This document shows positions 1-15,822 of a DNA stretch of 16,090 nucleotides, piece after piece. A program made the position numbers and the translations under genes. The notes under the pieces were generated by a model. That model was given only the letters and a program-made list of their open reading frames with translations. It ran no database searches and was not told the origin of the DNA. Where the stretch lies: positions 1 to 16,090 of the forward strand of contig JAIOQD010000058.1 in assembly GCA_021413595.1 (NCBI GenBank). Direction: 5' to 3'. Within the stretch, counting starts at the first letter, position 1. Each line of letters starts with the position of its first letter. The stretch is from Bacteroidota bacterium. GTDB lineage: Bacteria > Bacteroidota > Bacteroidia > 2-12-FULL-35-15.

Positions 1-66
1 TCTATGTCAATTCCCCCTAACCAACCACTAATTAAAACGTATTCAAAAGAAAGTTCTATTAATTAA
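1..66 (+). CDS. Possible C-terminal end of an upstream gene (partial)
   Basis: Frame 1 is open from the first base to a TAA at 64-66 and would encode the last 21 residues of a protein, ending in the residues YSKESSIN. The other two forward frames close within 30 bases. In crAss-like and most other tailed phages the gene directly before the portal is the terminase large subunit, so this could be its tail, but 21 residues carry no recognisable motif. The stop lies about 25 bases before the promoter of the portal gene, which fits the end of a separate transcription unit. Confidence 0.4.
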   Translation, partial: SMSIPPNQPLIKTYSKESSIN

Positions 67-69
67 ATT

Positions 70-90
70 AAGAAAATTTTAAGAAAATTT
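70..90 (+). repeat. Two-copy A-tract direct repeat, 11-base period
   Basis: The ten bases AAGAAAATTT occur at 70-79 and again at 81-90, one helical turn apart, just upstream of the portal promoter. Such phased A-tracts bend DNA and can act like an UP element. The repeat is seen directly; the role is inferred. Confidence 0.5.
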
Positions 91-91
91 A

Positions 92-119
92 TTTGGTATT
101 GTGAAAAATGCTATATTTG
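92..119 (+). promoter_or_regulatory. Bacteroidota-type promoter for the head operon
   Basis: TATATTTG at 112-119 matches the Bacteroidota -7 consensus TAnnTTTG exactly, and TTTG at 92-95 matches the -33 element, with 16 bases between them (slightly short of the usual 17-23). Transcription would start near 123-127, leaving a leader of about 15-20 bases before the portal GTG. Position, orientation and the upstream A-tract repeat all support it. Confidence 0.65.
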
Positions 120-141
120 ATGTATAAATAGCATATTTTCT

Positions 142-2553
142 GTGAGTTTAATCCCAAATGTCAATAGCAGCAACGGTGGTTCATCTGTAATGAGAGATTT
201 TCAGATGGATAAAAGCATTCAATCCAAATTAGACCCTCAATTTGGACAAGGGCTTGCTAAATACATTAATTCTACAATCAACGGAACAAATAGCTATTAT
301 TGGTTGCGCAATATTCGTTTTAGAAAAAACAGAAGTTACGCAAACGGTAAGATAGATATGTCGCAATTTATGGACAGGCTGGAAATGAATGGGAAAATGA
401 ACTATGTAAACTTAAATTGGAGTTGCATTAAACTTTGCAATACCATTATAGGTAGAATGGTTGGTTCTTGGATTGCTCGTAATGAAAAGGTAACTGTTAC
501 GGCAGTAGACGATATTTCTATTGCAAATAAAAAAGATAGAGCAGACCAAGCAGAATTTGTTTTTGATAATAAAGAATTTCTTGGTCAAATTCAAGAAGAA
601 TCAGGTGTTCAAGTTGTCCCACAAGACCAATTTGTAGCAGAAGATAAAGACGAATTAGATGAATGGTGCAGTCAATTTAACAATCTTCCGGAAGAAATTA
701 AATACGAAATAGGGGTTAATAATATATTAGCCGCTAATAGCTGGTTTGATGTATTAAAATCTAAAATGCTGCACGATAGCGCAGAAGTTGGATTAGTTGG
801 TACATATACATATATGAATACTGATGGAGAAATTATTGTTGAATGGGTAAGACCTGAAAACATGATTTATTCTTATTCAGAATATCCTGATTTTAGAGAT
901 ACTACATGGCGTGGTAGAATGACAAGTCTTAAAGTTAGCGAACTCCGTAAAAGATACGGGAAAGCTTGTGGCGGCACTTTGGACGAAGAACAAGTTTGGC
1001 AAATAGCGCAAACGGCTAAAGAGTATCAACTTTTAGATAAAATTACATGGAATCAACAATGGACTGTTTCTATTCTTAGACCTTATGACGAATGGAACTT
1101 AGATGTAATGGAATTTGAGTTAAGAAGTCTTGATGTTGAAACATTTACCGTAACAAAAACAAAAACAAACAATTCTACTTTAATTACAAAAGGAAGAATT
1201 GATAAAATAAAGGAAAATCAGAAGATTGTTGAAGATAAGCAAATTAATATCTACAGAGGCGTATATGCTGTAACATCAGATATTATGCTTGAATGGGGCA
1301 TTAAAAAAAATATGATTACTCCGCAAGACCCTAAAGAAGTTGGTAATGCGGAATTTTCTTATTCATTTTATATGTATCAAAGCTATGATATGAGAAACAT
1401 AGCTGTTCCTGAAAAAATAGAAGAACCTTTAGACCAAATGATTATTGCACGACTGAAAATACAACAGTTAGTTGCTAAAATGAAGCCAGCGGGTGCGCAA
1501 ATAAACATAGATGCATTACAAGAGTTGGATTTGGGATTAGGCGGCACTACAAAACCATTAGAGGTTCAGAAAATTTGGGAGCAATCAGGAAATCTTTATT
1601 ATAGAGGTAGAGATGCCGATGGAAACCCGATTCCAGCCCCTATTGCAGAATTAGCTAATGCTGGGTTTGTTCAGCAAATGCAAGGGCTTATAGCTTTATA
1701 TCAATTTCATTATCAAGTATTAAAAGACGAATTAGGTCAAGACCCTAATTTAATAGCATCTGCAACAACTCCAAGAGTAGCCGCAGGTAATGTTCAATCA
1801 GCTATAAAGGTTTCAGATAATACTATTGACCATATGTACGATGCATATTTACTTTGCATGGAAGATACTTCAAGAAAAGTAGCTTGTTTGCTTAATAAAA
1901 GCGTTTCTTATGGGGCTAAAAAATATAGGGAATTATTAAAAGAAGATGAAGTAAAAAATAGGGTATTTAATACAAAAATTCAGATGCTACCGGATGAAAC
2001 CGAAATAGCAAAATTAGAGCAAATGATGAATATTGCTATTGAATCTAATCCTGATTTTATATTGTATTGTGATACATTTAAATTAATTCGTGTAGCAAAA
2101 GAAAATGTAAAATACGCTGAATTACTGTTTAGAAAAGCACAAAAAAGATTTTTAAAAAGCAAGCAAGAGCAAGCGCAACAAAATAGCCAATACAATTCAG
2201 AGATACAGATTAAATCTCAACAAGAAAAAGCATCATCTGATGCTATGTTAGAGGATAAAAAGAATCAGGCTAAAGAAAGGCAAATAGTTCTTCAAGGAAG
2301 CTTTGATTTAATGAAATCGGCAGTACCTATGTCAAATGAAATGACAGCGTTACTTGGACAGGTTATTAAAAATGTATCTATCCCTTTGTTTATGGAAAAC
2401 GACCAATTAGAGCAAGCTATGGGGCAAATGGAACAAGAGAAAGAGCAAGCGCAAATGGAACAAGAGCAGCAAATGCAAGAACAGGGACAAGGACAGCAGG
2501 AACAACAAGGCATGGAACAGGGGATGGAACAACAAATGCAACAACAACAATAA
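142..2553 (+). CDS. Portal protein, crAss-like
   Basis: Probable portal protein, forming the dodecameric ring at the capsid vertex through which DNA is packaged and ejected. At 803 residues it has the size of crAss-like portals. The N-terminal region (residues about 18-115, with the stretch YYWLRNIRFRKNRSYANG) and its place before the head genes and capsid gene support the call. Residues about 680-730 are K/Q/E-rich and probably coiled; residues 754-803 form a low-complexity tail of Q, E, M and G. The start used is GTG at 142, a suitable distance after the promoter; the first in-frame ATG is at 190 (residue 17), and no Shine-Dalgarno sequence decides between them. The ATG at 157 is out of frame. 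The call rests on recalled family resemblance and gene order. Confidence 0.8.
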   Translation: MSLIPNVNSSNGGSSVMRDFQMDKSIQSKLDPQFGQGLAKYINSTINGTNSYYWLRNIRFRKNRSYANGKIDMSQFMDRLEMNGKMNYVNLNWSCIKLCNTIIGRMVGSWIARNEKVTVTAVDDISIANKKDRADQAEFVFDNKEFLGQIQEESGVQVVPQDQFVAEDKDELDEWCSQFNNLPEEIKYEIGVNNILAANSWFDVLKSKMLHDSAEVGLVGTYTYMNTDGEIIVEWVRPENMIYSYSEYPDFRDTTWRGRMTSLKVSELRKRYGKACGGTLDEEQVWQIAQTAKEYQLLDKITWNQQWTVSILRPYDEWNLDVMEFELRSLDVETFTVTKTKTNNSTLITKGRIDKIKENQKIVEDKQINIYRGVYAVTSDIMLEWGIKKNMITPQDPKEVGNAEFSYSFYMYQSYDMRNIAVPEKIEEPLDQMIIARLKIQQLVAKMKPAGAQINIDALQELDLGLGGTTKPLEVQKIWEQSGNLYYRGRDADGNPIPAPIAELANAGFVQQMQGLIALYQFHYQVLKDELGQDPNLIASATTPRVAAGNVQSAIKVSDNTIDHMYDAYLLCMEDTSRKVACLLNKSVSYGAKKYRELLKEDEVKNRVFNTKIQMLPDETEIAKLEQMMNIAIESNPDFILYCDTFKLIRVAKENVKYAELLFRKAQKRFLKSKQEQAQQNSQYNSEIQIKSQQEKASSDAMLEDKKNQAKERQIVLQGSFDLMKSAVPMSNEMTALLGQVIKNVSIPLFMENDQLEQAMGQMEQEKEQAQMEQEQQMQEQGQGQQEQQGMEQGMEQQMQQQQ

Positions 2554-2566
2554 AAAATATATTAAA

Positions 2567-2908
2567 ATGGCACTTAGTCAATTATTAGATTTAACAGAAA
2601 AATTCAATGTAGGAAGTTCAGTAGTTTTAGATGTAGAAGGGTACGACTATGCTATTGTACAAATAAAAACACCTTCTGCTACTATTGATTTTTCTACAAC
2701 AAATAATGGAGGAAACCCCGATAAGGCAGCAAACGCAGTTGATTTTGTTTCTTTTATGGGTACAAATTTAACTACTCAAACCGGAGTTGTGACATTAGCA
2801 ACAAGCGGGATAGTTAGAACAGAAAGGGGAGGTAAATACTTAAAATTATCGGCAGCGGCAGCCACAACAGTTGCTTTGCTTATTGTTAGATTATATAAAA
2901 TAGCTTAA
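2567..2908 (+). CDS. Small beta-rich head protein, possibly decoration or head-fibre base
   Basis: A 113-residue protein, rich in V, T, A and G with alternating hydrophobic residues, predicted by eye to be nearly all beta-strand. It has no signal peptide; the C-terminal segment (TVALLIVRLYKIA) looks like a buried strand, not a membrane helix. It begins 13 bases after the portal stop behind an A/T-rich leader without Shine-Dalgarno and ends 2 bases before the next gene. Small beta proteins between portal and capsid genes in crAss-like phages include head-fibre and decoration proteins, so a capsid-surface role is the best guess. No specific family was recognised. Confidence 0.65.
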   Translation: MALSQLLDLTEKFNVGSSVVLDVEGYDYAIVQIKTPSATIDFSTTNNGGNPDKAANAVDFVSFMGTNLTTQTGVVTLATSGIVRTERGGKYLKLSAAAATTVALLIVRLYKIA

Positions 2909-2910
2909 TC

Positions 2911-3288
2911 ATGGTACTTACAGCAGAATTAATTCAGTCAAAATTATTTAATCTTTATTTAGCTGCACATAAGCTTCATTTAGATACTCGTTCTTATTCC
3001 CAGCATAAGGCATTAGGTGAATTGTATGAAGGACTATTGGGATTTACTGATAGCATTAGTGAGATTTTAATGGGCTATCAGGGGGGCAAAAGAATTGGGA
3101 AGCTAATGCCCGAATCCCCTGCTATTTATAGCTTAGAAGCGGTAGATAAGCTTATTGAAGATGTGTTAAGTTTTTCTTATGAATTATACGAATGGGCTGA
3201 AACTAAAAAATATTGCGATGTAGAAAATAAAGCGCAAGATTTAAGTGGGTTATTTGCATCAACCAAATACAAATTAACACTTAGCTAA
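2911..3288 (+). CDS. Dps/ferritin-like protein in the head operon
   Basis: A 125-residue, almost wholly helical protein resembling the Dps branch of the ferritin superfamily, which binds and oxidises Fe(II) and protects DNA from peroxide damage. Visible residues are H20, H32, D47 and E51 (H32 in QHKALGELYE, D47/E51 in DSISE). Their spacings of 12, 15 and 4 equal those of H51, H63, D78 and E82 of E. coli Dps, the inter-subunit ferroxidase ligands. H23 is an alternative first ligand. The D67 equivalent would be G36, with E37 next to it, so the site may be modified. It is shorter than typical Dps (about 165 residues), lacking the lysine-rich N-terminal tail and part of the last helix. It starts 2 bases after the previous stop. 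Whether it is packaged in the virion or acts in the infected cell cannot be told. Confidence 0.65.
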   Translation: MVLTAELIQSKLFNLYLAAHKLHLDTRSYSQHKALGELYEGLLGFTDSISEILMGYQGGKRIGKLMPESPAIYSLEAVDKLIEDVLSFSYELYEWAETKKYCDVENKAQDLSGLFASTKYKLTLS

Positions 3289-3310
3289 TTAATAACCAAA
3301 AAAACAAAAT

Positions 3311-4456
3311 ATGTTAGAAGAATCAACAAATCCAACAGAAACCGCATCTCAATTTAACCCATTTGATGAATCTTCTTGGGTTGAAAACGGCAATGATGAA
3401 CAAACATTAGAAAATACCCAAATAATAGAGCAAGTTGCAACAGCAGCTACCGAAGTTAAAAAAGAAGAAGTTGCTGATACTTCACCCGATTATAATTCTT
3501 TTATTAAAGAAACATTTGGGTATGAAAATGTAGAAGCTGCAAAAGAAGATATAAAAAGATTAAAAGAAACTCCTGCAAAAGAAGAAGTAAAATTTGCTAA
3601 TGAAGATAGTGAAAAGCTTTATAAAGCATGGGTTGAAGGCAAGCAGGACGAGGTATATGGTTATTTAAATAATCAAAAGAAAATAAATAAGCTATTAAAT
3701 TCAGAAATAAATGAAGTTAATGCGGCTGAAATAATTAAATTAAGCATACAAAATACAAATAAAGACCTTTCAGACGATGAAGTTGAATTTGTGTTTAATA
3801 AAAAATTCTCAATTCCCAATAAGCCAACTCAATCTTATGATGAAACAGATGAAGATTATGAAGTAAAGGTTAATCAATGGGAACAGCAGGTGGTAACAAT
3901 GAAAAAAGAACTTGTTATCGAAGCCAAAATGGCTAAACCGCAAATTGAGAAATTAAAATCGGAATTAACACTACCTGATATTCAAAAAGAACAGAGTATT
4001 AATCAGCCAACGCAAGAAGATTTGCAAGAGGCAGAGCAATACAGAAAATCTTATGAAAATGCTTTAGAAGCGGAGTATAAAACCTTTGGCGGGTTCAATG
4101 TAATGTTTAAAGATGGGGATATTGAAATTCCTATTACTTACACCCCAACAGATGAAGAAAAAACTTTGCTAAAAACAACCTTAGTTGATTTTGACAGCAA
4201 TCAGTATTTTGGTGAAAGATGGTTTGCCGAAGATGGTAAGCCAAAAATCCATGATATTATGGCTGATAAATATTTTCTTGAAAATAAAGAGAAAATAATG
4301 CAAAAGGTTGCAAATGAAGCGGCTAATCAAATGCGTTTGCAAATGATAGCAAGAACAAGTAATGTTAGTTTAAATGGAAGAACTCAACAACAATCATTCA
4401 ATCCAAACGGTAAAACCGAATTAGAAGGATTAGCTGATTGGGCTTTTTCAAGTTAA
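3311..4456 (+). CDS. Acidic, coiled scaffold-like protein preceding the capsid gene
   Basis: A 381-residue, strongly acidic protein placed immediately before the major capsid gene, the usual place of a scaffolding protein that directs procapsid assembly. Residues 1-65 are low-complexity and E/T/N-rich, probably disordered. Residues about 65-250 are charged and helical with likely coiled coil; about 250-350 contain a more globular part (FGGFNVMFKDGDIEIPITYTP). The C-terminus ends in a conserved-looking hydrophobic patch (ELEGLADWAFSS), suited to touching the capsid protein as the C-terminus does in other scaffolds. It starts 22 bases after the Dps-like gene behind an A-rich leader. The role is inferred from position and composition; an internal head protein is the main alternative. 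Confidence 0.6.
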   Translation: MLEESTNPTETASQFNPFDESSWVENGNDEQTLENTQIIEQVATAATEVKKEEVADTSPDYNSFIKETFGYENVEAAKEDIKRLKETPAKEEVKFANEDSEKLYKAWVEGKQDEVYGYLNNQKKINKLLNSEINEVNAAEIIKLSIQNTNKDLSDDEVEFVFNKKFSIPNKPTQSYDETDEDYEVKVNQWEQQVVTMKKELVIEAKMAKPQIEKLKSELTLPDIQKEQSINQPTQEDLQEAEQYRKSYENALEAEYKTFGGFNVMFKDGDIEIPITYTPTDEEKTLLKTTLVDFDSNQYFGERWFAEDGKPKIHDIMADKYFLENKEKIMQKVANEAANQMRLQMIARTSNVSLNGRTQQQSFNPNGKTELEGLADWAFSS

Positions 4457-4493
4457 AAAAAACAATATTTTAAACAAACAAAAACTTTAAACA

Positions 4494-5912
4494 ATGGCAG
4501 GTATAAATACTTCCAACATTTTACAGCCGGGGGCTATTTCAGCCTCGTCTAATCAATGGTCACTCATTAGTGACTTGCAGCTTCTTACCCCTCAATTTTA
4601 CAACAAGTATGTACAAAAGTACGGTAATGAAGATTTTACATGGTGGTTATCTACTTTCGGTGGTATGGAAGAAGTTAAAAATCGTGAATTCTTTTGGTTT
4701 GAAAACAGAGGTAAATTGATGCTTGCAGTAAGCAATCTTACCGCTGTATCTGCTCCGGCAGCAGGTGCAACTGTATCTGTAACCGTTTCTGATGGTTATT
4801 ATAATTCAGGCACTCAAAACCCTATTCGTGCAGGAGAAACTGTTCGTGTAGCTTCTTCTAACATTGAAGGTGAAATCTTGACAGTAGACACAACTACTGC
4901 TTCTGCTTTCGTAGTTACTATCCGACCAAAGAAATCTACACAAGCTTTTGTAAGTGCTGGTTCTGCTAACTTGCTTGCAGGTGAGGTATTGCTTTTAAGT
5001 GGTGATACTGATGCTGGTGAAGCTTCTGATAGCATTAACCCACAAATTCATCTTGATATTAAGTATAGTAATACTATTACTGAAATCAGAGAAAGTTGGG
5101 CTGCAACAGATTTGGCTGAAATGACTGAAATTTTCTACAATAGTGGAGTAACAGGAGATGTTCCAGCCGCACAAGCAGGAAACTCTTACTACACTTTGAA
5201 AGGATTGATTAAAGCCAACACCCGATTCAAGAATAACGTAGAGTTCAAATTGATGCGTGGTGATAAGCAAACCAACACAGGTCTTTCTAATTCAGTTGGT
5301 GCGCAAGGTATTATCTCTCAAATCGAAGAAAGAGGTGAAACCGTAAACTACACAGCAGGTTCTTTGGACATTGCTAAATTGCACGAAATTACCCGTATTA
5401 TGGATGTAAACGGTTGTGCAAAACAAAATATGTGGTTGCAGGATATTTACCAAAAACAAAACTTTTCTGATGGTATTTTCAAAGAGTTCCCAGCAGGTGC
5501 ATTTGTTTGGGGTCAAGGCGAAAAATCAGAAGAAGCAAGTGTTTCTTATGGTTTCCAGCAAATGTATATTGATGGATATATGCTACAGACTAAGAAGTAT
5601 TCTAACTTCAACTCTGAAGTTGTTTACGGTAAAACTCCAAATGTTGATTACTTCCGTAACTACGGAATTATCTGCCCTATGGGAGAAAGTCGTGATGCTC
5701 GTGATGCAAGCAAATCTTACAAAAACATTACCATTATGTATCAAAATCCTCCTAAAGGTGGAACAGTTGGTAATGCAGTAAGAGTTTGGAGGCATGGTGG
5801 CGGTTCTCAAAATCCTACCAATGGTCAAATGATTGACAAGGTGGAGATGATTACTTACAAATCAAGTCGTGTTACAGCGGGCAACCAGTTTGTTATCGTT
5901 CAAGCTTCATAG
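4494..5912 (+). CDS. Major capsid protein, HK97-fold, crAss-like
   Basis: Probable major capsid protein building the icosahedral shell. The 472-residue length fits crAss-like capsid proteins. The N-terminal segment with aromatic residues (TPQFYNKYVQKYGNEDFTWW, then EEVKNREFFWFENRGK at 58-73) is followed by a beta-rich insert at about 78-178, then a helical and mixed core; the C-terminus is a beta-strand (NQFVIVQAS). Codon use differs from its neighbours: of 16 arginines, 9 use CGT, 2 CGA and 5 AGA/AGG, while the upstream gene uses AGA for 5 of 6. It also favours TTC, AAC and TAC. This is the pattern of a very highly expressed gene. The leader at 4457-4493 is long and A-rich without Shine-Dalgarno. 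It stops with TAG, has an in-frame TAA 33 bases on, and is followed by a strong terminator. Confidence 0.85.
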   Translation: MAGINTSNILQPGAISASSNQWSLISDLQLLTPQFYNKYVQKYGNEDFTWWLSTFGGMEEVKNREFFWFENRGKLMLAVSNLTAVSAPAAGATVSVTVSDGYYNSGTQNPIRAGETVRVASSNIEGEILTVDTTTASAFVVTIRPKKSTQAFVSAGSANLLAGEVLLLSGDTDAGEASDSINPQIHLDIKYSNTITEIRESWAATDLAEMTEIFYNSGVTGDVPAAQAGNSYYTLKGLIKANTRFKNNVEFKLMRGDKQTNTGLSNSVGAQGIISQIEERGETVNYTAGSLDIAKLHEITRIMDVNGCAKQNMWLQDIYQKQNFSDGIFKEFPAGAFVWGQGEKSEEASVSYGFQQMYIDGYMLQTKKYSNFNSEVVYGKTPNVDYFRNYGIICPMGESRDARDASKSYKNITIMYQNPPKGGTVGNAVRVWRHGGGSQNPTNGQMIDKVEMITYKSSRVTAGNQFVIVQAS

Positions 5913-5927
5913 TTTTTAATTATTACA

Positions 5928-5961
5928 ATGGTAGCGGGTTAAAATCCGCTACCATCTTTTT
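5928..5961 (+). terminator. Rho-independent terminator after the capsid gene
   Basis: A perfect 10-bp stem pairs ATGGTAGCGG (5928-5937) with CCGCTACCAT (5946-5955) around an 8-base loop, followed by C and five T (5957-5961). It begins 15 bases after the capsid stop. No clear promoter separates it from the next gene, so it may be a partial terminator that lowers downstream expression. Confidence 0.85.
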
Positions 5962-6033
5962 AGAAGAACACCCGATACAATTTCGGGGGGCGATATGCTA
6001 TTAAAAGTTATAAACGCTTAAAATAAAAGCAAA

Positions 6034-6951
6034 ATGGGACGACCAAAAGGTACACAAGCAGCAGGTATTGCCGATGTGCAATATTCTCAAACAGGCATTG
6101 GCGATATGCAAAGCCAGCCTCAAATTACAGCAGAGTTAATGCACTCTTTTATTGCTAAAGACGAAGCAGTAGAGCCGAAATCAGAGTACAGAATTTTTAA
6201 ATTAATCAATACCGCTAAACGGGGCAGAGTTCACATTGACGGTATTGATGATGTGATTAATCCCAAAACAGGTAAAGTTGAAAGGGTAAGGCTTCTTTCG
6301 GGAGTAGATACTATTTGGTTAAAAGAGCAGAAAGATGTTACAGAGGACTTTATTCGTCAAAACAGAAGAAGTTTGATTTTTGAAGATAAAGTATTAAGAA
6401 TCCCTTCATGGGATTCTACAGCTATTTCATTTATTGAAGTTAGTAGGCATTTGGTAGATAATCCAAACAGAAAAACAGGTTCTAAAACTGAATTTTACGA
6501 ATGGAATCCTCAAAAACAAGCTGAATTAGCACTTAAACAAAGGCATCAAAAAGTAGAAGCTATGAAATTAGCTATGACTATTGATGAAGATAAAATGAGG
6601 AAACACGCTTTATTCTTAGGAGTTTCTTTTGTAGATGAAGTCGGTATGGTTAAAACGCCTGATTCGTTAAGAAACGATTATGTTTTAAAAGCAGAAGAAA
6701 ATCCTATTAATTTTATTGAAACAGTAGAAAGCCCATTGGTTCATATTTCCTATTTAATTAAAAAGGCTATTATAGATACAAAAATTGATTTGGGCAGAGA
6801 AAGCAATAAAGTCTATTGGTCTACAGGTGGATTTATCTGTTCTATCCCTTCTCATATGAAAGCGCAAGCTTATTTAATTGAGTTTGCATCAAATGGCACA
6901 CAGGAAAGTAAAGACTTCCTTGCGCAACTTGAAATTGTAGTTAAAAAATAG
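6034..6951 (+). CDS. Conserved phage structural-module protein, unknown function
   Basis: A 305-residue soluble protein with mixed helix and strand and no signal peptide or membrane segment. The first 35 residues are low-complexity (Q/A/G-rich). A compact domain follows at about 50-125 (RVHIDGIDDVINPKTGKVER, then NRRSLIFEDKVLRIPSWD), then a charged helical segment with EFYEWNPQKQAE at about 154-165, and a C-terminal domain containing KAIIDTKIDLGRESNKVYW. I recall proteins of this kind in Bacteroidota phages next to capsid genes, always without a defined role. Lying alone between two terminators, it may be an auxiliary capsid or head-completion protein, but this is inference. The ATG at 6034 follows an A-rich leader (AAAAGCAAA). 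It ends TAG, with TAA two codons later. Confidence 0.6.
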   Translation: MGRPKGTQAAGIADVQYSQTGIGDMQSQPQITAELMHSFIAKDEAVEPKSEYRIFKLINTAKRGRVHIDGIDDVINPKTGKVERVRLLSGVDTIWLKEQKDVTEDFIRQNRRSLIFEDKVLRIPSWDSTAISFIEVSRHLVDNPNRKTGSKTEFYEWNPQKQAELALKQRHQKVEAMKLAMTIDEDKMRKHALFLGVSFVDEVGMVKTPDSLRNDYVLKAEENPINFIETVESPLVHISYLIKKAIIDTKIDLGRESNKVYWSTGGFICSIPSHMKAQAYLIEFASNGTQESKDFLAQLEIVVKK

Positions 6952-6971
6952 AATTAATTAATTCTATAATT

Positions 6972-7007
6972 AAAGCCTATGAAACTAAAAAATTCATGGG
7001 CTTTTTT
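6972..7007 (+). terminator. Rho-independent terminator before the neck/tail operon
   Basis: AAAGCCTATGAA (6972-6983) pairs with TTCATGGGCTTT (6993-7004) to give a 12-bp stem with one G-T wobble and a 9-base A-rich loop. The last stem bases run into six T at 7002-7007. It starts 20 bases after the preceding stop. Confidence 0.85.
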
Positions 7008-7008
7008 A

Positions 7009-7029
7009 TTTGGAAATGTATTATATTTG
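7009..7029 (+). promoter_or_regulatory. Bacteroidota-type promoter for the neck/tail operon
   Basis: TATATTTG at 7022-7029 is an exact TAnnTTTG -7 element, identical to that of the portal promoter. A TTTG lies at 7009-7012 but is only 9 bases away, too near for a standard -33 element, and nothing better is seen further up because the terminator stem occupies that place. Transcription would start near 7034-7037, leaving a leader of about 17 bases before the ATG at 7053. Its place directly after a terminator supports it. Confidence 0.55.
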
Positions 7030-7052
7030 TTCTATACAATTTTCAAATTAAA

Positions 7053-7718
7053 ATGACAGTAGATACTGCATATAAAATTATTCTTTTCGCTATAAATAAA
7101 AGCCAAAATGGGTATGTTTCACCTGATGAATTTAATTTAATAATTAATCAGGCTCAAACTCAATTTATGAATTATTTATTGGGCGAGTTTCAACAATACC
7201 AAGTTGGCAGACCTATTTCAAGAGTTCAGTACGGTAATAATGAAACTACAAGACAAAGATTAACTCCGTTTATAAAATCAGCATCATTGACTGTAGGTGG
7301 AGATGGGACAGTTCTTTACCCATCAAATTACCAGCAAACAGATACAATGTGGACTACTAATGATTCAAGAGTTAAATTTGTTTCGCAAGATTATTTATCA
7401 TCTTATCTTTCAAGCAAAATAGACCCTGTAGCTACAAATCCTATTTATCTATTGAATATGTATGGATTTAAATTTTATCCAAGTACAATAGGGTCTGCTA
7501 AAATAAATTACATAGAAACTCCAAATCAAATAGTGTGGGGATATACAACAGATTCTAATGGGCTTCCTGTTTATGCCCCATCTTCAAGTGTAGACCCAAG
7601 ATGGTATGATGTTGATATGATGGAAATAATCACAAGAGCATTAAGAATTATAGGTGTTAATCTGCAATCAGGAATGGTATCTCAATACGCTAACGAAATA
7701 GAGCAAAAAGGACAATAA
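7053..7718 (+). CDS. Neck/tail ring-like structural protein 1
   Basis: A 221-residue protein, counted from the ATG at 7053. A longer reading from 6996 is rejected because it begins inside the terminator stem and would run through the promoter. The N-terminus is helical (YVSPDEFNLIINQAQTQFMN, about residues 21-40), the centre is beta-rich (LTVGGDGTVLYPSNY), and the C-terminus is helical again with RWYDVDMMEIITRALRIIGV. This arrangement and position resemble the ring or connector proteins below the portal of crAss-like phages. I recognise it as a common Bacteroidota phage virion family but cannot say which ring it forms. Its stop overlaps the next start by one base (TAATG), suggesting translational coupling. 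Confidence 0.65.
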   Translation: MTVDTAYKIILFAINKSQNGYVSPDEFNLIINQAQTQFMNYLLGEFQQYQVGRPISRVQYGNNETTRQRLTPFIKSASLTVGGDGTVLYPSNYQQTDTMWTTNDSRVKFVSQDYLSSYLSSKIDPVATNPIYLLNMYGFKFYPSTIGSAKINYIETPNQIVWGYTTDSNGLPVYAPSSSVDPRWYDVDMMEIITRALRIIGVNLQSGMVSQYANEIEQKGQ

Positions 7719-8344
7719 TGGCAACAAGAGGACTTATTTGTGAAAGAATACAAAGGCAGATTTACAATAATTTTGCATCAGACGATGCGACTATTACCCT
7801 AAATCTAATAAATTCATATTTAAACGATGCAATAGGGATTGCCGTAAAAGCAAATTATAAAGAAAGCATTCAAGCAGATGGAATTGGTTATGTAAATAAC
7901 TCTTTCTATGCAACATTTAAAGGAATAGCGGTTACAAAAAATGATGATGAAACTTACAAGCTAACACTTCCCCAAATACCCTTTGGTATAGGTAAAAATG
8001 AAGGAGTAGCAACTTTGCAATTTAAAAAAGATAATGAAGTTTCACAGACCGCTATCCCTATTAGTATAAATCAAGTTGGGTATGCATTTAATATGCGACC
8101 AATGCAAAATAAAATAATATATTGGACTGAAAACCAATACGCATACGTTAAATCAACATTGCCATTATACCTATTTACTGCAACAGTTAGAATGATTTCA
8201 GGTGGCATTTCTACTGACTTAGATTCAGTTGTAAATGTACCCGATGAATATTATCCAATTATGGTAGAATATATAAAAAATCAGCTTTTATTTGAAAGGC
8301 AGCAGCCTATAGATACTTCAAATGATGGTGTAGATAAACCTTAA
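7718..8344 (+). CDS. Neck/tail ring-like structural protein 2
   Basis: A 208-residue protein starting at the shared A of TAATG. Residues 1-45 are helical (IQRQIYNNFASDDATITLNL, then INSYLNDAIGIAVKANY), followed by a beta domain at about 50-160 (DGIGYVNNSFYATFKGIAVT and FNMRPMQNKIIYW) and a final helical part (YYPIMVEYIKNQLLFERQQP). The helix-sandwich-helix plan is like that of its upstream and downstream neighbours, suggesting stacked neck or tail rings. I recognise it as a virion protein type of crAss-like phages. A single specific function cannot be given; a head-tail connector or ring role is inferred from position and fold pattern. Confidence 0.65.
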   Translation: MATRGLICERIQRQIYNNFASDDATITLNLINSYLNDAIGIAVKANYKESIQADGIGYVNNSFYATFKGIAVTKNDDETYKLTLPQIPFGIGKNEGVATLQFKKDNEVSQTAIPISINQVGYAFNMRPMQNKIIYWTENQYAYVKSTLPLYLFTATVRMISGGISTDLDSVVNVPDEYYPIMVEYIKNQLLFERQQPIDTSNDGVDKP

Positions 8345-8354
8345 ACCAATAAAT

Positions 8355-8618
8355 ATGCAAGCATTATTGAACCAAGTTATTTTAAAATCATTTGAAATTG
8401 AAGGGGTTACATCAGGTGGAATTATATTGCCGGATTCAATCAAAAGAAGAAGCAGCAAAGCAGAAATAATTTCAGTAGGTAAAGGAACAAAAAAAAGACC
8501 TATGATTTGGGAAAAAGGTCAAATAGTACATCATGTTAAAAATCATGGAACAGAAGTTATAGATAATGGAGAAAAAGTGTACTTAATGGATATGGATGCA
8601 ATTATTGCGTACTATTAA
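8355..8618 (+). CDS. GroES-like co-chaperonin
   Basis: An 87-residue protein resembling GroES (Cpn10), the heptameric lid of the GroEL folding chamber. The order of GroES features is kept: an N-terminal strand (NQVILKSFE, residues 6-14), the mobile loop that binds GroEL with its hydrophobic triplet in SGGIILPDS (20-28), the strand AEIISVGKG (37-45), a short roof loop, KGQIVHH (54-60), and the C-terminal part DNGEKVYLMDMDAIIAYY (70-87). It is about 10 residues shorter than bacterial GroES, mainly in the roof region. No groEL is visible, so it would act with the host GroEL, as phage T4 gp31 does for its capsid protein. It lies 10 bases after one ring-like gene and 11 before the next, so it is made together with tail proteins. 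Confidence 0.75.
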   Translation: MQALLNQVILKSFEIEGVTSGGIILPDSIKRRSSKAEIISVGKGTKKRPMIWEKGQIVHHVKNHGTEVIDNGEKVYLMDMDAIIAYY

Positions 8619-8629
8619 TTTAAATAAAA

Positions 8630-9400
8630 ATGGCTCAACAAAATAGACAATATGTTACAATAGATTCGATAGTTAATGACTATATCGAACAAAGTGAGCA
8701 ATCAGCACATAAATATTTTAAGTTGTGGCAACTTGCATTTAGGGGGATGGAAAGGCTTGGTATAAATTTTTTCTATCAAATTCGTTCAGTTAAATTGCCA
8801 TTGAACCCCAATAAAACAGTAACACTACCAAATGATTTTATTAATTACACCAAAATAGGGGTACTTAATAGTGCCGGAGAAATAGCTATTTTGAAATATA
8901 ACCCAAAACAAACATTTCTTGGTGACCAAATGCCCAATAGGGAGCAAATGGTTGTAGACGATTCTGTTCAAACTTATTCAGAATGGAATGCTAATTTCTT
9001 TTTTAATTATTGGAATGGAACAAGTTATACGAATCAATATGGCTTCCCAAGTGGCGGTGTTGATATTGGAAGTTTTAATATTGACAATACAAATGGAGTA
9101 ATACTTTTGAACCAGCATTTTAATTATGATTATTTGATGGTTGAATATATTTCATCTCCCAATCCCGATGAAGATTATCAAGTTCCTGTTCAATTTAGAG
9201 AAGCTTTGGTAGCATGGCTTGGATGGCAAGAAATTATGTATATGCCAAATACAAGAAAAGGTGCATTAGGGGACAAAAGAGATAGAAGAAATAACTTTTT
9301 TAATGAAAGAAGATTAGCAATAGCAGAGTATAGTCCATTTCGTTTAGAAGATGCTTATGAATTATCCCAAACAGCTACAAGACTTGTTCCAAAAGCGTAA
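8630..9400 (+). CDS. Tail adaptor/ring-like structural protein 3
   Basis: A 256-residue protein. An N-terminal helical part (residues about 5-55, with YIEQSEQSAHKYFKLWQLAF) leads into a beta domain (about 58-185, with KTVTLPNDFINYTKIGVL and YLMVEYISSPNPDEDYQVPV), then a helical C-terminus with EALVAWLGWQEIMYM and RRNNFFNERRLAIAEY. This pattern (helices, beta sandwich beginning with 'LPxDF', then helices with basic residues) is that of P22 gp4/T7 gp11-type tail adaptors that join portal and tail. It lies directly before the muzzle gene with a 12-base gap. The adaptor assignment is by recalled fold pattern and position, not by alignment. Confidence 0.65.
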   Translation: MAQQNRQYVTIDSIVNDYIEQSEQSAHKYFKLWQLAFRGMERLGINFFYQIRSVKLPLNPNKTVTLPNDFINYTKIGVLNSAGEIAILKYNPKQTFLGDQMPNREQMVVDDSVQTYSEWNANFFFNYWNGTSYTNQYGFPSGGVDIGSFNIDNTNGVILLNQHFNYDYLMVEYISSPNPDEDYQVPVQFREALVAWLGWQEIMYMPNTRKGALGDKRDRRNNFFNERRLAIAEYSPFRLEDAYELSQTATRLVPKA

Positions 9401-9412
9401 AAATATACAATA

Positions 9413-12400
9413 ATGCCGATTATAAATAGGACATTTAGTGCAGGATTAGATTTAGATAACCATCCATACAGAGTAGCTGAAGGTAGTTATATAGATGCAT
9501 TAAATATTACAAGGGATGCGCAAGGTGAATCCTCCGATGAAGTTGTTTCAAATATTTTAGGCAATGCCATTGTCGCCAATTCGCTTCCGGCAGGTCAAAA
9601 TAAAATAATTGGCGGGTATTCGGATAAGGTAAGAAATAGACTTTATTTTTTTAATTGGAATAGTAATGATTATGATGCAATTTATTATTATAATCAAGAT
9701 ACTGATTCTGTAGTTAAATTGCTTCTTAATAAAACAGATACAAGTGGTGTTGATGTTTTAAATTTCAATCCAAGTTATAAAGTAACTTCAATAAATATAA
9801 TTTACAGGGATGCAGCAGAAGGTGATTTATTATTTTTTAATGATGCCTATAATGAGCCAAGAGTAATGAATGTTTCGGCTAATTTTGGGACAAGCTGGAA
9901 AGCAGAATACTTATCTGTTGCAAAAGCACCTCCTATAATGCCATTAAAGCCTGTTTATGAAAATGATGCAACTAATACGATAATCAATACAACTATTTTA
10001 GATGTTGTAAAAAATACGACTTCAAATTTATTTACGGGTGGGCTTCAAACAAATTATGTATCATTTAATTTATTTTCCTCAACGGAATTTACGACAAATG
10101 TAGGTAAGGATGAATTTACATATATTGGTTCAGGGACTAATATGGACTTAAATGTAGCCCTACTTATGGGATATAATTTTCCTGTAGGAACTGTTGATAT
10201 ATCTTTATTACTCAACGGAGTTGAAATATCGGGTTCTTTGCAGACTGTTCCAGCAGGATTTGGAGGGCTATCTTATTCAAAATCAATAAACATAGCGTTA
10301 ATAGCGGGTGACATAATAAAAGTAAAATTTTATACAAGCAACTCATTTTCATATCCTACTTATTATTTTAATTTAACAAGCGGGGGATTAACCGGAATTA
10401 CGCAAACATCAAGTTCAAATTCAAGGGTAACTGTAAATAATTTAAGAAACTCTTTATTCCAATTTAGGCACAGATACGTTTATGACGATAACGAAAAATC
10501 TGTTTGGGGTTCTGCAAGTATAGTTCCATTGCCAAATCAGCCTACAGGTCAATTAACCTATGATACGTTTACTGATAATGCAAGAATATCCTTGTCTTTT
10601 ACCACAGGGAATGAGCAAGTAAAAGCTATTGAATTAGCATTTAGGAAGTTTTCAAACGGAACTACAACAGATTGGCAGTTAATAGATAAAATCAATAAAA
10701 CTGATTTAGCGATACCCGATAATGACATAAGAACATATAAATTCTATAATGATGGAATTTACAATACAATAGATATTTTAGATACCGAAAAGCTACAAGA
10801 TTATGTTCCACAGTTAGCTAATGCTGGTGAACTTGCTAATGGTAATACATTAATTTATGGCGGGATTACAGAGGGGTACGATTCTTTAAAATCCAATATT
10901 TCAGAATTAACCAATCTTAGTACAGGCGGGTTTTTTTATGATTATAATGGCTTATTGTTTTTTGCTACTATTGGAGGGAATGATTCGGGTTCAAAAGGAA
11001 CTACAATGAAAGTATTTCTTTATGGAACAGGAAATAATAGTACAATTACAAATGAAGTAGAGGTATTAAATAATGGCAAGGCTACTTTTGCAATAGATGT
11101 AATTGATAGTTTAGGCACACAAATAGGTGCTTCATATGCCGGAACTAACTCATTAACTGTAGCTACAGCACTTGGGTCTTTATCTGTATTATTGGTTACT
11201 AATGGATGGAATGAAACATCTTTAGTGGGAAATGTTTTAACAATGTCATATCCTACTACCGTAACATTACTTTCAAGTGGGACTAAATTAATTGCTACTA
11301 CAGATAATGACCTTACAACTTCATTCGCAAATGTATTTGAAGGGGCTTATCAGGTAGGGGTAATGTACTTTGATTCAAAGGGCAGAACCAACGGGGTAAT
11401 TACAAACGTAACAGCAAGCTATAACACCCCCAAGAACACAACGGTAAATTATTGCCAACCAAGAATATCAATTAACCATAGACCACCTACATGGGCTTCC
11501 TATTATCAAATAGTAAGGTCTAATAACACAACTTACAATAAAAGGTTAAATTGGGTTAGCAATTCCGCTTTTTCTGCTAATCAAGTAACTCCATCAGGGA
11601 ATGTTCAATTTTCCTATGTAGGCATAAGTAATTTAGATTATTACAATGAGCAGATAAAAGCAACACAAGGGGTTGTTAATTATAGCTTTACAGAAGGTGA
11701 CAGGATAAGGTTTCTTAAAAGATATAATTCATCAGGAACGGCTGCAAGTGTAACCGTTTATGATTATGAAATACTTGGGGTTGAAAGTAGTGTAAATATT
11801 GATGGGGTTGATGTAGCTGGTAAATTTATTAAAATTTATCATCCATCAACAGATGGGTCTGTTTTATTTGATGGCAATGCTGATTATCAAAATTATCAAA
11901 TACTTATTTACAATTATACCCAGCAAACGGGTTCAAAAAATAGGGTTTTTAATGAATTTGGGAAATGTTTTGGAGTGGGGAATGCGGGTACTGCGAATGC
12001 GTATCATGTTGGACTAAATCAATCTCAAAGCGCAACAGACCCAACAACCATTCCTGCTATTATAGATATAGTCAATGGAGATTTGTTTTTTAGAAAAAGA
12101 ACAGTTCCGATTGGAGCAAATCAAGTATTTAATTCAGGAATGTTTACTCAAAATACCCCATATGCTACAGCAGCAGCGGCTATTACGGGTTCTCCGCTTA
12201 CAGTAGGCTCGTATGTATTTTCTAATCAGACTACAGCGGTAGCAGGGGTAGGCGTTGGGGATTATCCAACTAATGCTAATACCGATTGCATATTTACCAA
12301 TAATTCATCAGTATCGGTTGGATTAAGAATAAGAGGTTCTGTTTCTGCTTATTCAGATATTACATCTTCAATTAAATTATTGGTTAAAATAACTAATTCA

Positions 12401-13822
12401 AGTGGAGTTTCATTATCTACAATAATGACTAATCAATCATTAACAATAGGGAACGCTTCTTATTCTTTTGAGTTCGATACAACCATTACCGTTCCAGCAA
12501 ATAGCAAAGTGTTTTTGTTAAATAATTTAACAGGAAGAACAACTACTGCCCCCGTACTTGGATTTGGTCAATTTGAATTAAAAGTAGATGTGTTAAATAA
12601 CATAACTATCCCAATTATAGAATCAAGCTTTAGCGATGTATATAATATTGTTACAAATAGCAATGGAAGGGAATCAATAGTAGATGAAAACGCCAAAAAG
12701 ACTTATTATCCAACATTAGTTAGATTTAGTCAATCTTATCAGGCAGATACTAATATAAACGGAGTTAATAGATTCTTTTTTGATAATCAAGACACCTACG
12801 ATAGAGGATTCGGAGATGTCCAAAGACTTCATGTTAGGGATAGATACATGAAAGTTTACCAAAGGCTTAAAGTAGGTAATGTGCCTATATTAACTCAAAT
12901 AGTAAAAGATGTAACAGGTAATCCGCTGCAAGCAAATACCGACCAATTAATAAATAAAATACAGTATTACGCAGGTGATTATGGAATAGGGGATAGTGTT
13001 TGCAGCCTTGCATGGGATAATTTTGCCGATTATTTTGTAGACGATTTTAGAGGAGTAGTTTGTAGATTAAGTCAAAATGGTATAGAGCCAATAAGTATTG
13101 TATATAAAACAAATGCGTTTTTTGTTAAAAACTTAAAAGCTTATAGAAAATCGTTAAATAATGGCATAGCACCTATTGGTGAAACTTATTCAGGAAACCC
13201 AACACTTTACGGGTGTTTTGATGCAGCTACAAACAAGTACATTTTAGCAATGGAAGAAATTAATAGGTATTCAACCCCTTATACTCTTTCATTTAATCAG
13301 GAATCATACACTATATCTTTTGACGAAAGAAAAAATCAATTTGATAGTTTTTATTCCTATAAGCCGGAATGGATAAGTTGCTTAAACACATTAACGCTTT
13401 CATTTAAAAACGGAGCAATTTGGAAGCATAATAGCGAAACTCATTGTAATTTTTATGGTGTTCAATATGAGGCAAATATTACCCCTGTATTTAATAGCTT
13501 TAGTATTCAAAAGAAAACATGGGTAAGCATATCAGAATACTCAAATACCGTATGGGATTGCCCAAGTATTGTATCTCAAATGAATACATATGGGACAACA
13601 GAGCAAAGCAGCTTAATTCCAGCCGCTAATTTTAAAGCGTTAGAAAGCAATTATCATTCTAATTTTTTAAGAGATATTAATTCAAATGGGTCATTAATTA
13701 ATGGCTCATCTCTAAAAGGGAACTATCTTATAATAAAATTAAGAAAAACAAACGCAAATCAATTTTTTTACATAAATTTGGTATCGGTGAAGTATATAGA
13801 TTCACCACTTACAAATAGTTAA
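9413..13822 (+). CDS. Giant tail 'muzzle'/stabilisation protein, crAss-like
   Basis: A 1,469-residue, almost wholly beta protein, matching in length and position the muzzle or stabilisation protein at the tail tip of crAss-like phages. Residues 1-175 begin with INRTFSAGLDLDNHPYRV and continue with blade-like repeats (IIGGYSDKVRNRLYFFNWN). Conserved-looking core segments include QFRHRYVYDDNEKSVWG (about 351-367), VGVMYFDSKGRTNGV (about 647-661), the segment near 1187-1228 with DSVCSLAWDNFADYF, and FDERKNQFDSFYSYKPEW (about 1302-1320). Between them lie three beta-rich, T/S/N-rich segments (about 203-338, 501-632 and 900-1062) that look like inserted sandwich domains. There is no signal peptide. 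The ATG at 9413 is 12 bases after the adaptor gene. Confidence 0.8.
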   Translation: MPIINRTFSAGLDLDNHPYRVAEGSYIDALNITRDAQGESSDEVVSNILGNAIVANSLPAGQNKIIGGYSDKVRNRLYFFNWNSNDYDAIYYYNQDTDSVVKLLLNKTDTSGVDVLNFNPSYKVTSINIIYRDAAEGDLLFFNDAYNEPRVMNVSANFGTSWKAEYLSVAKAPPIMPLKPVYENDATNTIINTTILDVVKNTTSNLFTGGLQTNYVSFNLFSSTEFTTNVGKDEFTYIGSGTNMDLNVALLMGYNFPVGTVDISLLLNGVEISGSLQTVPAGFGGLSYSKSINIALIAGDIIKVKFYTSNSFSYPTYYFNLTSGGLTGITQTSSSNSRVTVNNLRNSLFQFRHRYVYDDNEKSVWGSASIVPLPNQPTGQLTYDTFTDNARISLSFTTGNEQVKAIELAFRKFSNGTTTDWQLIDKINKTDLAIPDNDIRTYKFYNDGIYNTIDILDTEKLQDYVPQLANAGELANGNTLIYGGITEGYDSLKSNISELTNLSTGGFFYDYNGLLFFATIGGNDSGSKGTTMKVFLYGTGNNSTITNEVEVLNNGKATFAIDVIDSLGTQIGASYAGTNSLTVATALGSLSVLLVTNGWNETSLVGNVLTMSYPTTVTLLSSGTKLIATTDNDLTTSFANVFEGAYQVGVMYFDSKGRTNGVITNVTASYNTPKNTTVNYCQPRISINHRPPTWASYYQIVRSNNTTYNKRLNWVSNSAFSANQVTPSGNVQFSYVGISNLDYYNEQIKATQGVVNYSFTEGDRIRFLKRYNSSGTAASVTVYDYEILGVESSVNIDGVDVAGKFIKIYHPSTDGSVLFDGNADYQNYQILIYNYTQQTGSKNRVFNEFGKCFGVGNAGTANAYHVGLNQSQSATDPTTIPAIIDIVNGDLFFRKRTVPIGANQVFNSGMFTQNTPYATAAAAITGSPLTVGSYVFSNQTTAVAGVGVGDYPTNANTDCIFTNNSSVSVGLRIRGSVSAYSDITSSIKLLVKITNSSGVSLSTIMTNQSLTIGNASYSFEFDTTITVPANSKVFLLNNLTGRTTTAPVLGFGQFELKVDVLNNITIPIIESSFSDVYNIVTNSNGRESIVDENAKKTYYPTLVRFSQSYQADTNINGVNRFFFDNQDTYDRGFGDVQRLHVRDRYMKVYQRLKVGNVPILTQIVKDVTGNPLQANTDQLINKIQYYAGDYGIGDSVCSLAWDNFADYFVDDFRGVVCRLSQNGIEPISIVYKTNAFFVKNLKAYRKSLNNGIAPIGETYSGNPTLYGCFDAATNKYILAMEEINRYSTPYTLSFNQESYTISFDERKNQFDSFYSYKPEWISCLNTLTLSFKNGAIWKHNSETHCNFYGVQYEANITPVFNSFSIQKKTWVSISEYSNTVWDCPSIVSQMNTYGTTEQSSLIPAANFKALESNYHSNFLRDINSNGSLINGSSLKGNYLIIKLRKTNANQFFYINLVSVKYIDSPLTNS

Positions 13823-13833
13823 ATTCAAATAAA

Positions 13834-14444
13834 ATGAGTCCAGCATTAATAGCAGCAGGAGTTCAAGGGGTAGTTATCAATCTCAACAATACCAAACAGC
13901 AGTAAAGGGTGCGCAAGCAGGAACAGCAACGGGGTTAGGCGCATTGCAGGATAGGAGAAGTGGGATAGCTGGTGTAAGTAGAATGGTTGGAATACAGAAT
14001 CAGGCATTAGATACAGCAAGAGTAAATGCAGAAAATCAAAGAAATCAAAGATTTGGTCAATTAGGTGGTGCTACTCAAATGCAAAGTGCAGAAGATAGGA
14101 GATTATTTCAGCAAAACGTATTAAGCCCTTACGAAAGAAGATTGCAGTTAGCAAATATGAAAGCGCAAGGAGCAACTAATGTATTTAATGCAGGGATGAG
14201 TAACTTGGCAGGAGCAGGTAGTACTGCTGCTATGATGAACATGAGGAAGTCTGATACTATGGGAGCAGATAGCTATAGAAAAAATCTTCCTGACATGAAA
14301 GTTGGTAGTTTGCCAACGGAGATGGCTAATTATGCAGCGCAACAATCAACTGCTGATATGCCTTCGGGAATTGCAAACACATTTCCGAATGAAATTAGAA
14401 ATACATTATTACTTCATCCAAGTTTTAGAACAAAAAGTTATTAA
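13834..14444 (+). CDS. Small internal virion (cargo-like) protein, apparent frameshift
   Basis: An ATG at 13834, 11 bases after the muzzle stop, opens a frame starting MSPALIAAGVQG that ends at TAA 13903-13905 after 23 codons. The frame one base back is open from 13833 to 14444 and continues sensibly with GSYQSQQYQTAVKGAQAGTA and then LQDRRSGIAGVSRMVGIQNQ. One extra G in the GGGG run at 13867-13870 would join them into a 203-residue protein. Without the join, the only start before the conserved-looking part is a TTG at 13944 (166 residues). The protein is rich in A, Q, N, R and M and probably helical. Its place after the tail-tip gene and before a 454-residue helical protein resembles the T7 gp14-gp15-gp16 block of ejected proteins, so a cargo role is inferred. 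Sequence error, real mutation and ribosomal frameshift remain possible. Confidence 0.6.
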
Positions 14445-14457
14445 AATTATTATCTAA

Positions 14458-15822
14458 ATGGCAGCTTCAAGAATATTAAATCAAGCAACAAACCCTTATT
14501 CTGCGGGTGCATTAGTTCTTGACACTACCCCAATAACACAATACTATCTTAATCAACAAGCTAAGAAAGAAGCTAAAGACGAAGCATTAGATAAATACTA
14601 TCAAGACCAAATGGCTTCTTTATCTTCTAAGGGTCTTAGAGAAATAGATATGTCTCGATTTTCGGATAAATTCAATAAATTAAAGCAATTATTTATTCAA
14701 AATAAAGAAGCTATTAAAAACCCAATGAAATATGGGTTTGAAAAATCACAAGAATTTAATGAATTAAAGCAAGAATTAACCAATTATCCGGAACTAAGTA
14801 AACAAGCAAAAGACGAAAAAGCACAAGCGTTAAAAATATCAATGAATCCGGCAAATAGAGATTTAATAGATATTCCAAGTTTTGATGAATCATTAAAATT
14901 TCATGATTTACCCATAGGTGACCCAAATAGAAAGGCGTTAAATTTAAGTAATTTGCCATATTTGGCAAAACAATTAAACCCATCTGAATATAATACTTAC
15001 ATAAAAGGCGTATTATCAAATGTCGGAACAACGGGTTCGTTTGGTGAAAGTAAAAAAGTAGGTAATTTTATGGTTGAAACTCCATATACAAAAGAATATT
15101 CAAAAGAAAATTTATTAAAAGCGGGAGAAAGAACAAAAATAGATGCAGTATCTAACCCTTCATTAAAAAGAACAGCTAAAATAATGTTTGATAATGCGCC
15201 CGATACAGAAAAAGCAAACTTAGCTAAAATACATCAAGATTATTTTGGCAAACCGCTTTTAAATGGAGAGGATATTTTAGCCGCACAAGTAATTCAATCA
15301 GGTTTAACGGCTAAAGAAGTAGAAACAAAACAAGCACCTAATTTTGGGCTTAGAGCAGCTACTAATAATGCTTATATAAGTGGAAGAAAAACAAGCGGTA
15401 AGGCAAGTGGGGAAGAAACTTATGATTTTATAAAGAAAGGTTCTGAAATTTTACAAAGCGGAAACGCTGATTTAGCTAATCAATATTTTTCAACATGGAA
15501 AGCAGCCTCTAAAAATGAAATAGGAGGTAATATAGGTTTTCAAAATGTTAGTTATACGCCCGCAGGTTGGATTAAAATAAAATATAACGCACCAATTACT
15601 CAAGAAGGTGTTACGGTAGCAGTCCCAACAGAAGTTAAATTAGACCCTAAAGACCCTCAATTATTAAATAAAATAACAGGACTTCATCAGCAATTTATGG
15701 GCGGTGATGTTAAAGTTGAAAAGGCAGCACAAAAAGAAGCAGCAAAAGCAGGTGCAGCTAAATCAAAAGAAATAAAAGAAACAAAAACATTTGTATTTCC
15801 TAAAGGTAAAACTAAGTTTTAA
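14458..15822 (+). CDS. Probable internal virion (cargo-like) protein
   Basis: A 454-residue basic, lysine-rich, mostly helical protein without signal peptide or membrane segment. Residues 1-25 include the A/L-rich start and LVLDTTPITQYYLNQQA; residues 30-130 are charged helices (EALDKYYQDQMASLSS, KFNKLKQLFIQNKEAIKNP). A mixed middle part follows, and the last 40 residues are A/K/E-rich and probably disordered (KAAQKEAAKAGAAKSKEIKE). No enzymatic motif is seen. Position after the muzzle gene and helical, charged make-up are as expected for a protein packed in the head or tail and ejected with DNA. It starts 13 bases after the previous gene and shares one base (TAATG) with the next, so the two are probably translationally coupled. 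Confidence 0.6.
   Translation: MAASRILNQATNPYSAGALVLDTTPITQYYLNQQAKKEAKDEALDKYYQDQMASLSSKGLREIDMSRFSDKFNKLKQLFIQNKEAIKNPMKYGFEKSQEFNELKQELTNYPELSKQAKDEKAQALKISMNPANRDLIDIPSFDESLKFHDLPIGDPNRKALNLSNLPYLAKQLNPSEYNTYIKGVLSNVGTTGSFGESKKVGNFMVETPYTKEYSKENLLKAGERTKIDAVSNPSLKRTAKIMFDNAPDTEKANLAKIHQDYFGKPLLNGEDILAAQVIQSGLTAKEVETKQAPNFGLRAATNNAYISGRKTSGKASGEETYDFIKKGSEILQSGNADLANQYFSTWKAASKNEIGGNIGFQNVSYTPAGWIKIKYNAPITQEGVTVAVPTEVKLDPKDPQLLNKITGLHQQFMGGDVKVEKAAQKEAAKAGAAKSKEIKETKTFVFPKGKTKF

Follow-up and report, generated by a model that had tools for sequence, protein, structure and literature searches.

Ferritin-superfamily proteins encoded by phages have already been described. DPS-like proteins were published for gut phages of Bacteroidetes ('Gratiaviridae' and 'Flandersviridae'; PMC8008677) and for Lactobacillus phages (PMC6669764), and the accessible text of both papers proposes that they help against oxidative stress; that text, with which we compare by description, draws no link to the Pfam family DUF5856, to the T4 protein rI.-1 or to a head operon. 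In this study we analysed a stretch of 16,090 nucleotides (the window) from a Bacteroidota bacterium (assembly GCA_021413595.1, contig JAIOQD010000058.1, positions 1 to 16,090), in which a gene at 2911-3288 on the forward strand encodes a DUF5856 protein within a phage head operon. We file its 125-residue product as DUF5856 rather than as Dps proper; its predicted fold is Dps-like and its chemistry probably so too. We favour, as reasonably probable, the reading that the gene encodes a minimal Dps-type ferroxidase (DUF5856/phrog_858) which is made during head assembly and limits Fenton damage around packaging.

The open reading frame (ORF) is intact, with an ATG start and a TAA stop, and its coordinates, its length and the gaps to its neighbours, 2 bases upstream (the preceding ORF, 2567-2908, ends at 2908) and 22 bases downstream (the next one starts at 3311), are as a first-pass annotation of the window had given them. 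The protein matches DUF5856 (PF19174) over the entire profile (positions 1-94 of 94; 59.1 bits against a cut-off of 34.6, E 9e-16) and phrog_858, named 'starvation-inducible transcriptional regulator', at E 1.2e-17, and the DUF5856 family profile matches HP-NAP by sequence (E 6e-5). An alignment-based model, in favour of which a single-sequence model with a predicted local distance difference test score (pLDDT) of 59.5 was set aside, shows a four-helix bundle with a pLDDT of 90. Dps-family structures account for 45 of the 50 matches listed in a Foldseek search of the PDB with this model, and the VIA-align matches also support a ferritin-like four-helix bundle, so that the ferritin or Dps type of fold proposed in the first-pass annotation is borne out by the prediction. 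No match to Pfam Ferritin (PF00210) was found for the window protein up to E 1, nor up to E 10 with filters, and only 2 of 46 family members match that profile, with a best E of 0.12. The fold matches in BFVD include small proteins of Pithovirus LCPAC404 (E 0.01) and Fadolivirus (E 0.03) and, at ranks 28 and 32, two models named prohead protease (E 0.06 and 0.12); together these suggest that Dps-like domains may be spread among large DNA viruses.

With the Dps family (E. coli Dps, HP-NAP) the window protein is predicted to share the four-helix ferritin-like bundle and aligned ligands, but it differs in several respects. Its chain has 125 residues, whereas the Dps chains among the matches listed mostly have 143-185; its His-His loop is three residues shorter than in HP-NAP and Dps; the BC helix of Dps is not present in the model, in which residues 57-74 are non-helical (pLDDT about 78 in 61-80); and the D67 ligand of Dps is replaced by Gly36. 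A basic N-terminal DNA-binding tail is a feature of Dps, although not a universal one. The window protein has none, its N-terminus (MVLTAELIQSK) showing no richness in Lys or Arg and the whole chain having an isoelectric point of 5.3 and a charge of -4.2, and DNA binding through such a tail therefore finds no support.

Could the protein nevertheless hold iron in the manner of Dps? Profile alignment and conservation point to four candidate metal-binding residues, aligned to H25, H37, D52 and E56 of HP-NAP, which we take to be the ferroxidase ligand residues of that protein:

2977..2979, forward strand, codon of H23, aligned to HP-NAP H25 (Dps H51 position)
3004..3006, forward strand, codon of H32, aligned to HP-NAP H37 (Dps H63 position)
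3049..3051, forward strand, codon of D47, aligned to HP-NAP D52 (Dps D78 position)
3061..3063, forward strand, codon of E51, aligned to HP-NAP E56 (Dps E82 position)

All four are present in every one of 72 sequences, namely in 46/46 of set A2, which includes the window protein and whose conservation is biased because the selection patterns contain the H32 motif, in 11/11 sequences reached only via the capsid gene and in 15/15 hand-chosen sequences from phage records. The first-pass annotation had named H20, H32, D47 and E51 as the ligands. These residues are where it placed them, and the spacings of 15 between H32 and D47 and of 4 between D47 and E51 match its figures for E. coli Dps; the last three are invariant in the 72 sequences, but H20 (46/46, 11/11 and 13/15 in the same sets) is not, and the counterpart of Dps H51 is H23 instead. 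The spacing of 12 from H20 to H32 arose because the His-His loop is shorter here, the profile alignment to HP-NAP leaving a 3-residue gap between H23 and H32, and H20 lies three residues before H23. Placing H23 on HP-NAP H25 agrees with members carrying a 3-residue GEG insertion (L005, L009 and LR745206), in which the spacing of 12 is measured from the second histidine, and with IME08 and Thanatos-2, which have Lys at the H20 position and keep His at H23. The D67 equivalent, position 36, is indeed Gly with Glu37 beside it, as had been noted before. Gly occupies this position in 29/46, 1/11 and 6/15 of the sequences and Asp in 0/46, 0/11 and 6/15; the T4, IME08, GAP32 and Thanatos-2 members have Asp, in contrast to the window protein. 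In A2 every Glu, Asp or His that is conserved at 90% or more lies in the loop or in helix A or B, a pattern which would fit a site of the Dps type better than one of the ferritin type.

Contrary to the first-pass expectation, such proteins turned out not to be unusual in phages. Searching 50,697 phage records by tblastn with the 125-residue protein gave 1,297 matching records at E<=1 and 789 at E<=0.01; by organism name these phages are mostly enterobacterial, and many among the matches listed are T4-like (rI.-1 or MobD.6). T4 rI.-1 (AF158101.6 58819-59205) matches phrog_858 at E 9e-55, which places the T4 member within the phage family, and DUF5856/phrog_858 proteins including rI.-1 (MobD.6) have the same conserved H, H, D and E and C-terminal Tyr/Leu as the window protein. 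The gene is under purifying selection, with a ratio of non-synonymous to synonymous substitution rates (dN/dS) of 0.02-0.30 in the 26 listed of 78 gene pairs, a rough estimate in that the listed pairs have dS between 0 and 1.5 and many are near or above 1. Among 295 genomes of the window's bacterial class, 4 matched DUF5856 at E<=0.001, and of these the source genome of the window alone exceeded the cut-off; one of 14 genomes in a control scan (Bacillus subtilis) matched too, below the cut-off.

In the window the gene stands in the following order:

142..2553, forward strand, portal protein (phrog_6547, E 6e-49)
2567..2908, forward strand, 113-residue protein between the portal and DUF5856 genes (relative in 80/82 related loci)
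2911..3288, forward strand, DUF5856/phrog_858 Dps-like protein, 125 residues (presumed metal ligands H23, H32, D47 and E51)
3311..4456, forward strand, scaffold-position protein, 381 residues (relative in 82/82 related loci)
4494..5912, forward strand, major capsid protein candidate (phrog_13704 'virion structural protein', E 9e-17, and position)

Virion-structural, GroES-like and tail-module genes follow. Taken together, these genes make up a head and tail module of the podophage type. The product of 3311-4456, which has no informative family match, is by its position presumably the scaffold. The 113-residue protein had been called a head protein; this could not be confirmed, with no Pfam match at E up to 1 and a top PHROG E of only 0.017. 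NCBIfam gave no matches for the four proteins tried. The portal has relatives in 87 of the 50,697 phage records, and 86 of the 87 are by name phages of Flavobacterium, Cellulophaga, Maribacter or Tenacibaculum. The capsid protein has no matches in the phage records; the sole relative found for it in genome_contigs, 80% identical, is on a contig of a Sphingobacteriia metagenome-assembled genome (MAG). As to membership in Crassvirales, the window gave just one sub-threshold match, to CrAss_Ring_2 (21.4 bits against a cut-off of 27). The GroES/Cpn10-like gene lies at 8355-8618 within the tail module and has a relative in 73 of the 82 related loci. The source genome of the window is incomplete (83.6% complete, 793 contigs).

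The placement in a head operon, which the first-pass annotation had remarked on, is kept in the relatives that possess the gene. The 82 related loci come from viral_contigs (80 via the capsid and 2 via the portal, L228 and L230 being opposite ends of one contig), and 11 of them have DUF5856, each time immediately upstream of the scaffold match; with the Sphingobacteriia MAG contig L264, whose DUF5856 protein is 61% identical, the gene directly precedes the scaffold gene in the window and 12 related contigs. In the loci that lack it, the stretch before the scaffold gene has either no ATG-started ORF of at least 40 residues or other ORFs, and this slot is an accessory-gene position within the head operon. 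Presence of DUF5856 requires at least three changes on a quick capsid tree (81 rows, three loci with partial capsid genes left out), which indicates a patchy distribution; the gene is accessory in this lineage. The slot holds 45 mutually related non-DUF5856 ORFs (in L184, L194, L204 and others), of which the member examined ends in Thr repeats. In another locus a 247-residue ORF (L177:5650-6393), which on a reading of its sequence resembles a GIY-YIG homing endonuclease, lies between the 113-residue gene and DUF5856.

Does the protein then simply build or decorate the head, having retained the ferritin fold and lost the iron chemistry? Its position before the scaffold gene, the loss of the D67 equivalent and the occupation of the same slot by other ORFs would suit such a role, but the four ligand positions are conserved amid varying neighbours and DUF5856 is absent from 71 of the 82 loci, in all of which relatives of the portal, scaffold and capsid were found. 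We regard this explanation as quite improbable.

Other phages show both head-linked and lysis-linked settings. We sampled 158 loci, 152 after removal of six repeat fetches of one contig; they are the best-scoring 80 per scan and hence non-random, and each gene cluster is named after one or two representatives. A portal-cluster gene adjoins DUF5856 in 63/152 contigs, directly upstream in 62 of the 63, which resemble one lineage, and a portal, terminase, scaffold or capsid cluster lies within five genes in 76/152. The head-linked members have differing head genes. They include podophages whose portal is phrog_156 and whose capsid is phrog_283 (DSL-LC05 and ctNMl277 among them), L005, L009 and L010 with capsid phrog_11589, L169 with the order terminase-DUF5856-portal and capsid phrog_334, L002, which has a second match to the minor head protein phrog_220 (E 1e-25), ctyzp037 and the window lineage with portal phrog_6547. 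An endolysin cluster adjoins the gene in 32/152, a second endolysin cluster, counted apart from these, lies directly downstream in 11 loci, and 44/152 show neither setting; for GAP32 and phiAS5 neither head nor lysis linkage is evident.

The adjoining portal genes and, in the window lineage, the position immediately upstream of the scaffold gene would also be expected if the Dps-like protein were enclosed with the scaffold in the prohead and then stayed with the packaged DNA or was injected. Chryseobacterium phage MA9V-1 bears on this possibility. Its 1,347-residue protein (L086:3594-7637), named 'prohead core protein serine protease' in the accessible part of PMC10537231, contains a DUF5856 domain (46.8 bits; Pfam 473-572, PHROG 465-576), and its N-terminal part is a head maturation protease (phrog_207, E 9e-25; Peptidase_S77, 25.9 bits against a cut-off of 27). 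MA9V-2 has the same fusion, with 92% identity over 90% of the length and 93% in the domain. The MA9V-1 polyprotein holds 27 NE dipeptides against a shuffle mean of 7.2 (none of 2000 shuffles reached 27), 21 of the 27 having the form [ILAV]NE[SAG]; cutting there would yield 22 pieces, and the piece 441-577, 137 residues between two NE sites, holds the Dps-like domain and nothing else that was recognised. The next gene encodes a relative (33% identity over 505 residues) of a PAU protein annotated as major capsid, and this relative has NE only at residues 23 and 61, where a propeptide cut is expected. These patterns suggest that NE may be the cleavage motif of the MA9V-1 protease and that the Dps-like piece could be released inside the prohead, and the two prohead-protease models among the BFVD fold matches lean the same way. 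On the other hand, the window protein stands alone without a protease, the fusion is limited to the one lineage of MA9V-1 and MA9V-2, NE cleavage is itself our inference, and the two NE dipeptides of the capsid relative do not exceed the 1.7 expected from composition, their position alone being suggestive. We therefore consider packaging possible but doubtful. The giant polyprotein of MA9V-1 is perhaps a packaged multi-cargo precursor, in which Pfam and PHROGs confidently recognise just the protease and the Dps-like piece. Further fusions were not found in viral_contigs, where 15 pattern matches included no relatives, and among the phage-record matches listed (best 30 of 48 and 20 of 871) MA9V-2 was the only other one. 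PAU proteins annotated as 'internal capsid protein' were rejected as DUF5856 relatives (PHROGs gave no match to them at E 0.01 or better), the DUF5856 hidden Markov model found no matches up to E 1 in stretches of about 12 kb each from PAU and pT24, and a piece of L090 gave no Pfam matches.

The members next to endolysin, holin or rI genes speak against packaging and raise another possibility, that the protein modulates lysis or lysis inhibition in the way of T4 rI.-1 and uses the ferritin-like fold as a mere scaffold. The members of T4, KP5, Thanatos-2 and IME08 come after rI or after a gene annotated for lysis inhibition, those of P19250A and GB2A adjoin a holin and an endolysin, respectively, and T4-type members adjoin tk and rI, in contrast to the head-operon member of the window. 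According to the part of a review available (PMC6832632), over-expression of rI.-1 in T4 slightly prolongs lysis inhibition. The accessible text of another paper (PMC8573959) tells T4 laboratory sublines apart by a frameshift in rI.-1, which suggests that this gene is probably dispensable in T4. Phage RaK2 has a DUF5856 homologue, but its authors report, in the portion available (PMC3622015), no homologues of rI, rI.1, rIII or T, and they doubted a lysis role because these partner genes are missing. PMC7824862 mentions neither Dps nor ferritin. A role in lysis timing is also difficult to reconcile with the head-operon location in the window and its 12 relatives and with the conservation of metal ligands, superfluous in a pure scaffold, and we think it unlikely. 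Neither packaging nor lysis timing need exclude ferroxidase activity.

Under the reading that we prefer, a minimal ferroxidase made during head assembly, the protein would be produced late alongside the head proteins, and two subunits would pair as in Dps, with iron held between the histidines H23 and H32 of one chain and the acidic residues D47 and E51 of its partner. With H2O2 or O2 as the oxidant it would oxidise and sequester Fe(II), and removal of Fe(II) would spare the new genomes some of the damage that hydroxyl radicals cause around the time of packaging. We see it as an accessory trait, on which assembly does not depend. A wider view, which we put forward tentatively and regard as rather improbable in its full extent, is that DUF5856 including T4 rI.-1 forms a branch, carried by phages, of minimal ferroxidases of the Dps type, and that this branch was repeatedly recruited to head morphogenesis, once as a cleavable cargo of a prohead protease, so that some capsids may hold an iron-oxidising, genome-protecting protein. 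A literature search, from which subscription journals were mostly absent, found no publication under 'DUF5856' or 'phage-encoded Dps' and no title on a Dps-like protein within a phage head module, an absence that such coverage leaves unproven. DUF5856 has no function in Pfam; 789 of the 50,697 phage records match it (E<=0.01), it is present in T4, and the present reading supplies a biochemical hypothesis that can be tested at four specific residues. Should head-linked members indeed be packaged, the virion would contain a protein that handles iron or acts as an antioxidant, which would bear on the survival of the particle and the fate of the injected DNA. The T4 member brings this question within reach of experiment.
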